The notes under the pieces: model-generated
Told to the model about the DNA's origin: nothing
Database searches by the model: none
The model's input: the letters and a program-made list of their open reading frames with translations, nothing else
NCBI GenBank assembly: GCA_902620585.1
Contig: CACNJC010000009.1
Span: 1 to 55,647 of the forward strand
Length of the DNA stretch: 55,647 nucleotides
Direction of reading: 5' to 3'
From: an uncultured Pelagibacteraceae bacterium
GTDB lineage: Bacteria > Pseudomonadota > Alphaproteobacteria > Pelagibacterales > Pelagibacteraceae
Position numbers and translations under genes: made by a program
Shown here: positions 1 through 43,972 of the stretch, one piece after another
Layout of the letters: every line of letters begins with the position of its first letter
Position numbering within the stretch: the first letter of the stretch is position 1

Positions 1-289
1 TAGGGATAGCTTTCTTAGGATTATTACCTGGCTTTGGCATTGGTATTAATTGCATTTCACCTAAAATCCGCGAAACTCTTAAAGTTGGCTGAGCGCCTTT
101 ACTCATCCAATATTTAACCCTTTCGAATTCAACTTTAATTCTCTCTTTTTTATCCTTTGGTAATAAAGGATTATATGATCCAAGTTTTTCTATAAATTTA
201 CCGTCTCTTGGATATCTTCCATCAGCAACCACTATCTTATAAATAGGTCTTTTTCTCACGCCGCCCATTGATAATCTTATTCTTAACAT
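1..289 (-). CDS. rpsP: 30S ribosomal protein S16 (3' end outside window)
   Basis: Small-subunit ribosomal protein S16. The first 96 codons are visible and the C-terminus runs off the window. The N-terminus reads MLRIRLSMGG followed by RKRPIYKIVVAD, which is the S16 signature, and the downstream GSYNPLL and YWMSKGAQPT segments also fit the family. The ATG is preceded by an AAGGAA ribosome binding site. It lies about 10 bases downstream of ffh on the same strand, matching the common ffh-rpsP-rimM-trmD order, so it is probably co-transcribed with ffh and under the ffh leader. Confidence 0.95.
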   Translation of the reverse strand, partial: MLRIRLSMGGVRKRPIYKIVVADGRYPRDGKFIEKLGSYNPLLPKDKKERIKVEFERVKYWMSKGAQPTLRVSRILGEMQLIPMPKPGNNPKKAIP

Positions 290-299
290 ATTTTTCCTT

Positions 300-1652
300 T
301 CATTTTAGTTGATTAAGCATTTCATCTGGTATCATTCCAGATGGAATTTTTTGTCCTTTGGACATTTTTTTCATCATATCTGACATCATTTTAAATTGTT
401 TAAGTAACTTATTAATCTTAGTAACGTCTACGCCTGATCCTATTGAAATTCTTTTTCTTCTAGATCCGCTTATGATTTTTGGATTTTCTTTTTCTTTTTT
501 AGTCATTGATAGTATTATGGCTTCATTTTCAACCAACATCTTTTCATCAATATTTGCTTGATCCATTTTATCTTTCATTTTATTCATACCTGGAAGCATA
601 GACATAACTCCTTCCATCCCTCCCATTTTTTTCATTTGTCTCAATTGAGCTAGGTATGAGTCCATAGTAAATATTCCTTTTTTTAATTCTTCCTCAGTTT
701 CTTTGATTTTTTCTTCACTTAAATCTTGTTGTGCTTTTTCGACTAAAGTAACAATATCTCCCATACCTAAAATTCTATTTGCAAATCTTTCAGGATGAAA
801 AATTTCTAAATCTGTAATTTTTTCACCTACACCAACAAACTTAATAGGTTTGCCTGATATATGTTTCATGCTTAATGCAGCGCCTCCTCTAGAGTCACCA
901 TCAACTCTCGTAAGAATAATTCCTGAAATGTTAACTGAGCTATCAAATTCTTTTGCCACATTAACTGCTATCTGACCTGTTAAAGAGTCGGCTACTAAAA
1001 TAGTCTCAGATGGATTTATAATTTCTTTGATTTGTTTTATCTCCGTCATCATTGGTAGATCGATCTGTGTTCTTCCGGCTGTATCAAATATAATTACCTC
1101 AGAGCCATTTAAATTTGCTGTATTAAGTGCTCTTTTAGTTATGTCTATTGGCTGTTGCTTTTCCACAATTGGTAGACATTGAATGTTATTAGTCTCGGCT
1201 AATAACTTAAGTTGTTCTTGCGCTGCAGGTCTGTAGACATCTAGACTTACCAACATCACTTTCTTTTTGAAATTTTTTTCTATTGTTAACGCTAATTTTG
1301 CAGCGGAAGTTGTCTTTCCTGAGCCCTGCAACCCAACCACTAATAAAGAAACTGGAGGAACTGCTTTTAAATTTAATTTTTCATGCTTTGAGCCCAAAAT
1401 ATTTACTAACTCATCGTAAACAATTTTCACTATCATTTGCCCAGGAGATGTAGATTTAATAATTTCTTGTCCTAAAGCTTTCGGTTTTATATTAGTAATA
1501 AATTCTTTAACCACCTGAAGAGCTACGTCTGCTTCTAACAAAGCTAGCCTTATTTCTTTTAGCCCAGATTCAACTTGGTCCTCTGTTAAAGATGGGGCAT
1601 TTTTCAGTTTAGAAAAAATTTTTTCTAATTTATTTGTCAAATTTTCAAACAT
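300..1652 (-). CDS. ffh: Signal recognition particle protein Ffh
   Basis: GTPase that, with 4.5S RNA, binds signal sequences of nascent inner membrane proteins and docks with FtsY. From the chosen ATG it is 450 residues, normal for Ffh. The N-domain spans about 1-90. The G-domain has the P-loop GLQGSGKTT (about 107-115), DVYRPAAQ (about 138) and DTAGR (about 190). The methionine-rich M-domain follows, with GGMEGVMSMLPGM and the RKRISIGSG RNA-binding helix region. An upstream in-frame GTG at 1679 would add 9 residues but lies inside the leader hairpins, so the ATG giving MFENLTNK is preferred. ftsY lies 1 kb away on the other strand. Confidence 0.97.
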   Translation of the reverse strand: MFENLTNKLEKIFSKLKNAPSLTEDQVESGLKEIRLALLEADVALQVVKEFITNIKPKALGQEIIKSTSPGQMIVKIVYDELVNILGSKHEKLNLKAVPPVSLLVVGLQGSGKTTSAAKLALTIEKNFKKKVMLVSLDVYRPAAQEQLKLLAETNNIQCLPIVEKQQPIDITKRALNTANLNGSEVIIFDTAGRTQIDLPMMTEIKQIKEIINPSETILVADSLTGQIAVNVAKEFDSSVNISGIILTRVDGDSRGGAALSMKHISGKPIKFVGVGEKITDLEIFHPERFANRILGMGDIVTLVEKAQQDLSEEKIKETEEELKKGIFTMDSYLAQLRQMKKMGGMEGVMSMLPGMNKMKDKMDQANIDEKMLVENEAIILSMTKKEKENPKIISGSRRKRISIGSGVDVTKINKLLKQFKMMSDMMKKMSKGQKIPSGMIPDEMLNQLK

Positions 1653-1760
1653 TTTTATAACGTCCAACACCAATCGCACTAGTGGGCGAACCTTCGCTGA
1701 CTAGTGTCGACGCTCTTGTTTTCAAGAGCACCGCAAAAACTTGAGTATTTGCGGAAAGTT
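1653..1760 (-). promoter_or_regulatory. Structured 5' leader RNA of ffh (three hairpins)
   Basis: Three near-perfect inverted repeats lie back to back directly upstream of the ffh start: CCGCAAA/TTTGCGG (1731-1737 with 1748-1754, with inner ACT/AGT), GCTCTTG/CAAGAGC (1712-1718 with 1723-1729, four-base loop), and CACTAGT/ACTAGTG (1677-1683 with 1700-1706) enclosing GCGAA/TTCGC. The region is clearly GC-richer than its surroundings. Comparative work on Pelagibacter ubique intergenic regions (Meyer and colleagues, 2009) reported a likely cis-regulatory RNA preceding the gene for the SRP protein; this element fits that description by position. No ligand is known to me. Autoregulation of SRP synthesis is a possible role, by inference. 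Confidence 0.75.
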
Positions 1761-1815
1761 GTGAAAAGTACAATTTAGGGTTTTAAAAGTCAATGAATAA
1801 ATATACTAATTAATT

Positions 1816-2634
1816 ATGACTAAGGTTAACGCTTATAAAATGGACGGACTAGGTAATGATTTTATCATTATAGATAGAAGAGAAGTCCAAATAAATTTAA
1901 GTAAGGAAAAAATAATCGAATTAGGCGATAGAACAAATGTTGGATTTGATCAAATAATATTTATTGAGAAAAAAATTAACAATTATTTTCCTATCACGAT
2001 TTTTAATTCTGATGGGGGAGAAATAAGTGCTTGTGGAAATGGAAGCAGATGTGTTGCATATCTTTTAAGTGAAAAAGTTAATTCGAAATTAATTAAGATT
2101 AAAACAAACAATAGATTACTTGATGCTGAAGTAGTGAGTGAGTCCAGTGTAAAGTTGAATATGGGTAAACCCATATTCGATATAGAAAAAATTCCCTTAT
2201 CAAAAGAAATAAAAGATAATAGAGTAGACTTAACGATTGACGGTAAATCTTTTAAAAATGGATTTTGTTTAAATGTTGGAAACCCACATATAATTTTTTT
2301 CGTAAAAGACTGTTTTGCTTATGACTTAAAAAACATTGGTCCAAAAATAGAGAATTATTCTATTTTTCCACAAAGAATCAATGTCACACTTGCTCAAGTA
2401 GAAAATAAAAGACTAATCAAAGTAAATGTGTGGGAAAGAGGTGCGGGACTTACAAAAGCGTGTGGAACTGCTGCATGTGCTACAGCAGTAGCTGCATTAA
2501 AAAATAAACTAACAAGTAACAAAGTTGAAATAAAGTTTAATGAAGGAGTTTTAGATATAGAGATCGATAATTCTCAAAATATATTTATGACTGGACCTGT
2601 TTCAAAAGTAAAAACTTTACAGATAGATATTTAA
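1816..2634 (+). CDS. dapF: Diaminopimelate epimerase
   Basis: Interconverts LL- and meso-diaminopimelate in the lysine and peptidoglycan precursor pathway, in the cytosol. The 272 residues match the family length. Both catalytic cysteines are visible in their expected motifs: Cys73 in SACGNGSRC and Cys216 in KACGTAAC. The N-terminal KMDGLGNDF is also characteristic. It is divergent from ffh, and its stop is one base from the ftsY start, so the two are probably one transcript. In many alphaproteobacteria a miaB/mtaB-type gene sits between dapF and ftsY; none is present here. Confidence 0.97.
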   Translation: MTKVNAYKMDGLGNDFIIIDRREVQINLSKEKIIELGDRTNVGFDQIIFIEKKINNYFPITIFNSDGGEISACGNGSRCVAYLLSEKVNSKLIKIKTNNRLLDAEVVSESSVKLNMGKPIFDIEKIPLSKEIKDNRVDLTIDGKSFKNGFCLNVGNPHIIFFVKDCFAYDLKNIGPKIENYSIFPQRINVTLAQVENKRLIKVNVWERGAGLTKACGTAACATAVAALKNKLTSNKVEIKFNEGVLDIEIDNSQNIFMTGPVSKVKTLQIDI

Positions 2635-43897: not shown

Positions 43898-43972
43898 TGG
43901 AGCGGGCAAAGGGACTTGAACCCTCGACCTTCTCGTTGGCAACGAGACGCTCTACCACTGAGCTATGCCCGC
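43898..43972 (-). tRNA. tRNA-Gly (GCC anticodon)
   Basis: 75 bases including an encoded 3' CCA. The acceptor GCGGGC (43967-43972) pairs with GCCCGC. The D-arm is GCTC/GAGC, the anticodon stem CTCGT/ACGAG with loop TTGCCAA gives anticodon GCC (complement at 43938-43940), and the T-arm contains GGTTCAAGTCC. All arms are intact. Confidence 0.97.

Follow-up and report, generated by a model that had tools for sequence, protein, structure and literature searches.

On the minus strand of the window, i.e. the whole 55,647-nucleotide stretch of uncultured Pelagibacteraceae DNA analysed here (contig CACNJC010000009.1), ffh is followed by rpsP, which is truncated by the window edge and whose start codon was taken from the sequence; dapF diverges from them on the plus strand (Table 1). 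The initial annotation had placed a leader of three adjacent inverted repeats with 7-base arms in front of ffh, and all three are indeed present in the window sequence at that place. Read 5' to 3' on the minus (ffh-sense) strand, the order is hairpin A, hairpin B, hairpin C, then 24 nt and the ffh ATG, in good agreement with the distance of about 25 bases given earlier for the proximal hairpin. An in-frame GTG at 1679, inside hairpin C, would add 9 residues to Ffh; we favour the ATG at 1652 because the MFEN start is conserved.

Table 1. Genes and leader elements at the locus (window coordinates)
Feature	Position	Strand	Details
rpsP (ribosomal protein S16), operon gene 2	1–289	-	Pfam PF00886 at 83–265, E 2.6e-27
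ffh, operon gene 1	300–1652	-	ATG at 1652; protein begins MFENLTNKL
Intergenic region	1653–1815		between ffh (minus) and dapF (plus)
Conserved leader tail	1663–1676	-	class-wide trend GCRWUUUUYGYUUGG (alignment A1, by eye); U-rich in many lineages, not in SAR11; also column and T counts
Hairpin C	1677–1706	-	arms CACTAGT/ACTAGTG (1706–1700 with 1683–1677); inner GCGAA/TTCGC stem
Bulge positions of hairpin C (core of Rfam RF01793)	1699/1684 and 1698/1685		C.C mismatch and adjacent A.C pair
Hairpin B	1712–1729	-	arms GCTCTTG/CAAGAGC (1729–1723 with 1718–1712)
Hairpin A	1731–1754	-	arms CCGCAAA/TTTGCGG (1754–1748 with 1737–1731), plus inner extension
-10-like hexamer TACTTT	1765–1770	-	17 nt from the -35; weak, 3/6 to consensus; conserved spacing
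-35 hexamer TTGACT	1788–1793	-	putative leader promoter, from sequence and conservation
dapF, divergent neighbour	1816–2634	+	not adjoining the motif in genomes G174 and G337

The minus strand from 1653 to 1762 folds with -41.2 kcal/mol (z -5.50), and none of 200 shuffled sequences folds as well. As the plus strand (1630–1800) also folds well (z -5.79), folding energy does not assign the strand, because inverted repeats fold on both strands. The leader has a G/C content of 45% (50% for 1677–1754) against a window mean of 31%; it is not, as had been claimed, the most G/C-rich non-coding DNA in the window, since the tRNA at 43901–43972 reaches 60%. A closing helix between a 5' CAAC and the GUUG of the tail is part of the lowest-energy fold, but its pairing was not clearly above the re-pairing control: for 37 Pelagibacterales loci, 84 of 1000 among-locus permutations were as good, and the helix was not accepted.

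Hairpin C and its 5' flank match the Rfam family RF01793 ('ffh sRNA' or 'ffh motif') on the minus strand at 1721–1669 with 42.6 bits (cut-off 35), which confirms the earlier identification with the candidate Pelagibacter RNA. Apart from this match, only tRNA reaches the cut-off in the window, and none of the SRP (4.5S) RNA models of Rfam does so. Meyer et al. (2009, PMC2704228) described the ffh motif, then of no known mechanism, as a single bulged hairpin with covariation and two near-invariant cytosines, found ahead of ffh in Pelagibacter, Rhodobacterales, Sphingomonadales and Rhizobiales. Reports on Bartonella (PMC7717549) and Mesorhizobium (PMC5596092) concern its expression or annotation and, as far as these sources show, give no mechanism.

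The expectation that SAR11 homologues would show compensatory base changes held for all three hairpins. In 50 distinct Pelagibacterales leaders (alignment A2, scored against A, B and C), 95.3% of the cells are paired overall. Three of the 7 pairs of hairpin A changed on both sides and three depart only by unpaired cells (94.3% paired); hairpin B has two-sided changes at 4 of its 6 pairs (94.2% paired). Hairpin C with its lower extension shows 2 of 14 such pairs; seven C pairs are invariant, and three of the four pairs of the lower extension are unpaired in 4 to 13 sequences. Class-wide, hairpin C was examined in alignment A1, i.e. 68 loci differing by at least 5 positions, taken from 161 and including lineage f41 (see below): both partners have changed in 11 of 12 pairs, and 94.1% of the cells are paired, compared to 26–47% in slid controls. 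None of 500 shuffles reached the covariation score of A1, 0.453 (shuffles 0.146). A measure of further pair types, by contrast, gave no excess over shuffles (445 of 500 as high for A2, 439 of 500 for A4). Of the two Rfam bulge positions, the second turned out to be a variable pair in A1 (C-G 11, G.U 5, U-A 2, A-U 1, G-C 1), non-standard in 48 of the 68 loci and there, judged by eye, mostly A.C. The first is a C.C mismatch. Its presence in 68 of 68 A1 loci is circular, as both C were demanded by the locus finder; among 75 motifs from loci chosen by their S16 protein (see below), in whose hairpin C stem 9 of 12 pairs covary, it is C.C in 69, U.C in 5 and C-G in one.

The strand of the leader was assigned to the ffh sense, because a conserved promoter element points that way (Table 1). 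Upstream of the motif, TTGAC is present in all 146 unique regions of the RF01793-selected loci (13.75 expected from shuffles), these regions being related sequences rather than 146 independent events, and TAnnnT follows it at 17–19 nt in 88 of the 146 (0.8 expected). In the rpsP-selected loci, TTGAC occurs within 140 nt in 59 of 75 (7.2 expected). For the window, the element would put the start of transcription at about 1758–1760, some 5 nt ahead of hairpin A, and give a leader of roughly 107 nt. A generic promoter scan did not list the TTGACT/TACTTT site among its matches; it gave another minus-strand site at 1829–1800 (9 of 12 matches, with 0.6 sites expected at random), which, if used, would lengthen the leader and leave its direction unchanged. 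One might also assign the element to the dapF side, as an antisense structure, or regard it as a DNA palindrome recognized by a regulator, for the genes on its two sides diverge and either strand can fold. However, the promoter element faces ffh and rpsP, and two genomes (G174 and G337, see below) have other divergent neighbours. Moreover, in the 11 pairs of A1 away from the bulge there is no unpaired cell, and the departures are wobbles that read G.U on the ffh-sense strand. We regard both variants as extremely improbable.

Of 101 relatives, 81 have an RF01793 match, and of 387 genomes of the class, 112 have one at E 0.001 (86 over the cut-off). A wider model, R1, matched 254 of the 387 genomes at E 0.01 and 250 at E 0.001, with no match in the other 133; as R1 was trained on the 68 loci of A1, this reach is partly by construction, and the E-values are rough. 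In order to see what the motif accompanies, we took the 112 RF01793 genomes and 77 more from weaker R1 matches, 189 positioned genomes altogether. Where a genome had two R1 matches, one was used: the better one in G135, G156 and G163, and in G106 the weaker one, which lies beside rpsP. In G106, whose assembly is listed as 7% contaminated, the R1 match on contig C595 is 1.5 kb before rpsP, and C63, a contig of 4.1 kb, has its match at the end.

A same-strand rpsP follows the motif in 109 of 112 RF01793 genomes and in 76 of 80 R1 genomes (three overlap), i.e. in 185 of 189 distinct genomes, at distances of 51–5078 nt. The four genomes without a linked rpsP (G293, G244, G138 and G156) are contig or assembly breaks or marginal matches: in G293 no S16 was found, and ffh continues into a recF-like gene of the opposite strand, a junction that we take to be an assembly join; in G244 the motif is at a contig end; and in G138 and G156 the R1 matches are marginal and away from their ffh-rpsP. 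A fairer test than these genome counts is provided by loci picked by the S16 protein alone. There were more than 585 S16 matches, of which we used the 80 most similar to the S16 of lineage f41; by title these belong to alphaproteobacteria or unplaced proteobacteria. Among these, 75 of 80 carry one R1 motif each upstream of rpsP on the same strand, and ffh precedes rpsP in 77. In the remaining five loci (L229, L247, L250, L254 and L274) R1 had no match at E 0.1; in L229 and L274 ffh starts at the very beginning of the contig, and with filters off weak R1 matches appear just upstream of ffh in L247 (E 0.0007) and L250 (E 0.009). Second, divergent rpsP matches were seen in G164 (contig C103) and G365 (contig C73), the one in G164 adjoining a second rplS match.

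The motif is directly before ffh in the window and in most lineages, and an Ffh match is present in 155 of 161 motif loci (160 fetched loci and the window). That it might take part in the regulation of ffh was suggested as a possibility by Meyer et al. (PMC2704228); Ffh (or SRP) would then bind the leader and control its own synthesis. Three lineages comprising 7 genomes (f41, f76 and f136) speak against this, as there the motif is placed before rpsP without an intervening ffh. In f41, rpsP directly follows the motif in 5 of 5 motif-bearing genomes (G326, G456, G394, G245 and G139), dapF is still divergent, and the motif lies 51–58 nt ahead of the S16 domain with RF01793 scores of 38.5–48.7 bits, above the cut-off. 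Judged by S16, the closest named relatives of f41 belong to the OCS116 cluster and the PS1 clade (loci L212–L214; 87–89% identity). The gene order of L212 is mtaB-dapF | rpsP-rimM-trmD-rplS, with ffh absent before rpsP; ftsY is not beside mtaB there, a position in which it was seen in 5 of the 80 named loci, most of which do not reach so far.

The five f41 genomes are 93–97% complete, and none of them matched the ffh model TIGR00959. The SRP GTPase domain PF00448 was likewise found in 0 of 5, compared to 23 of 23 other picked alphaproteobacteria and 14 of 14 controls. Judged by these protein models, a PS1/OCS116-like marine lineage appears to have lost both SRP GTPases, Ffh and FtsY. This is surprising, given that the SRP has been described as conserved throughout life (PMC7844537). 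An Rfam scan of G139, which covered 35 of 37 fetched pieces (without L331 and L332) or 698 of about 1266 kb, gave no SRP RNA, RNase P RNA or tmRNA in these pieces. Its matches include an rpsB leader (RF01815, just at the cut-off; L318, 18100–18172), a cobalamin riboswitch (L329, 4331–4509) and a Rickettsia sRNA47 (RF02800, just over the cut-off; L311, 5708–6014).

In the other two lineages, represented by G174 (f76; weak R1 match, E 0.0088) and G337 (f136; moderate match, E 2.9e-6), the motif precedes rpsP-rimM-trmD-rplS, in G337 308 nt ahead of the S16 domain. Neither ffh nor dapF adjoins the motif in these genomes, which have other divergent neighbours, and ffh is located elsewhere in the genome. 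No R1 match at E 1 was found upstream of the relocated ffh of G174; in G337 ffh is at a contig end, its upstream region being outside the reach of the assembly. The expectation that the motif serves ffh, via Ffh or 4.5S RNA, thus fails on several counts: the motif is kept before rpsP in three lineages without an operon ffh, all five f41 genomes are without detectable ffh and ftsY, R1 finds no motif at E 1 before the ffh that G174 carries elsewhere, and it is rpsP that follows in 185 of 189 genomes. A regulator of ffh is therefore disfavoured, and we consider it very unlikely. On this evidence, the name 'ffh leader' is right for the place and wrong for the purpose.

If the motif belongs to the operon rather than to ffh, its ligand could also be another operon product, i.e. 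RimM, TrmD or L19. All of their genes are behind the motif in G139 (f41), G174 (f76) and G337 (f136), in the order rpsP-rimM-trmD-rplS, and L19 leaders are known from Firmicutes and Flavobacteria (PMC7247131). Comparing the positions of rplS and trmD in 80 of the 189 motif genomes, we found units that keep the motif without these genes: rplS is about 2 Mb from rpsP in G338, trmD and rplS are both about 600 kb away in G214 and about 45 kb away in G267, and G192 carries the two on a different contig. The unit of G192 consists of motif-ffh-rpsP followed by convergent genes; neither by comparison nor by inspection of the frames was rimM found in it, and although this argues against RimM as well, it is one genome, in which rimM was not located elsewhere. 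G224 gave no match to rplS or trmD, and six genomes with the genes on different contigs (G437, G298, G115, G158, G200 and G101) were not counted as unlinked. In L034 (from G338) a short open frame with CPWSGKP...CNPDCRDKF seems, by eye, to lie between the motif and ffh. Since rpsP is the only gene common to all compared units, S16 becomes the candidate ligand by elimination, and a response to RimM, TrmD or L19 is unlikely.

A ligand-free, promoter-proximal element is a further alternative: the leader might stabilize the transcript, or the hairpin with a U-rich tail might pause or terminate transcription at a set rate and thereby give rise to an 'sRNA'. Such an element would fit the promoter element present upstream in nearly every locus, and leader RNAs are reported in metatranscriptomes and in Bartonella (PMC2704228, PMC7717549). 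It would also fit the tail, which is U-rich in many lineages: at least 4 T in the 8 nt after hairpin C occur in 40 of 81 unique non-Pelagibacterales loci, compared to 14.7% of 810 background windows, and 45 of 161 loci, a count that was not de-duplicated, have 5 or more T in 8. In L206 (from G267) a run of seven T after hairpin C gives the textbook shape of an intrinsic terminator. In the SAR11 leaders, however, a U-run is missing; the mean for 32 unique Pelagibacterales loci is 2.3 T in 8. Between 1600 and 1860 of the window, a search for an intrinsic terminator found no G/C hairpin directly followed by a U-run, and yet the same C.C hairpin is kept; furthermore, a plain terminator needs no near-invariant internal mismatch. 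We therefore consider an element without a ligand rather unlikely.

Taken together, the leader has a conserved RNA structure and occupies the 5' part of a ribosomal-protein transcription unit, and ribosomal-protein operons are commonly controlled by their own product binding the leader (PMC7247131). We consider it likely, though far from certain, that the leader is a cis-acting, S16-responsive feedback element of the [ffh-]rpsP-rimM-trmD-rplS operon. Free S16 would bind hairpin C, with its C.C mismatch, G/C stem and tail, and would thereby turn down the operon that encodes it. Hairpins A and B may be structured 5' parts that, by eye, vary between lineages; in SAR11 they would begin about 5 nt past the putative start. 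The initial annotation had held translational control to be possible, which the short distance between hairpin C and the ATG permits. In SAR11, control would indeed most likely be translational, because hairpin C lies 24 nt from the ATG and no U-run follows. In other lineages, where a U-run follows and the ATG is far off, hairpin C could instead serve as an intrinsic terminator or pause. Ffh would be a passenger, and the supply of SRP would follow S16, i.e. ribosome assembly.

A scan of SAR11 16S rRNA for a C.C hairpin gave 0 matches (10 shuffles averaged 2.5), so that imitation of the rRNA does not add to the case for S16, and a literature search for the S16 site on 16S rRNA returned nothing. 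A link of the motif, rpsP or S16 to an alphaproteobacterial leader was not found in the open-licence literature. With less confidence, we suggest that RF01793 might be a class-wide S16 sensor by which most carriers set their Ffh supply according to free S16, and which the PS1/OCS116-like bacteria kept for rpsP; this wider proposal is still tentative. If true, membrane targeting would be hard-wired to ribosome assembly, and the question of how ffh is regulated in these bacteria would have a possible answer, via a ribosomal protein. A family of RNAs that has stood as an orphan under the name of ffh since 2009 would gain a testable function, S16 feedback, and S16 leaders would extend to another phylum besides that of the Flavobacteria.

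Compared to RF01793 as described by Meyer et al. (PMC2704228), a single bulged hairpin, the Pelagibacterales unit consists of three covarying hairpins. Of the two-position bulge of the Rfam family one C.C mismatch is left, as the second position pairs variably (A.C, C-G, G.U, U-A), and the motif tracks rpsP although the family is named for ffh. A close parallel is the Flavobacterial S16 leader of Eckert and Weinberg (2020, PMC7247131), likewise a predicted leader of rpsP-rimM with S16 as the likely ligand; it belongs to another phylum, the likeness seen here is one of gene context, and 'ffh' does not occur in the main text of that paper. The L19 leader of Firmicutes, also present in Flavobacteria (PMC7247131), is similar in having an operon product as feedback ligand. 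It differs in that rplS is unlinked from the motif in the four genomes named above (G338, G214, G267 and G192). The leader of the E. coli S10 operon is subject to L4-dependent attenuation, with the ribosomal protein acting at a terminator-like hairpin. Where a U-run follows hairpin C, the leader described here would work in a like manner, by an analogy that involves a different protein and a different RNA.
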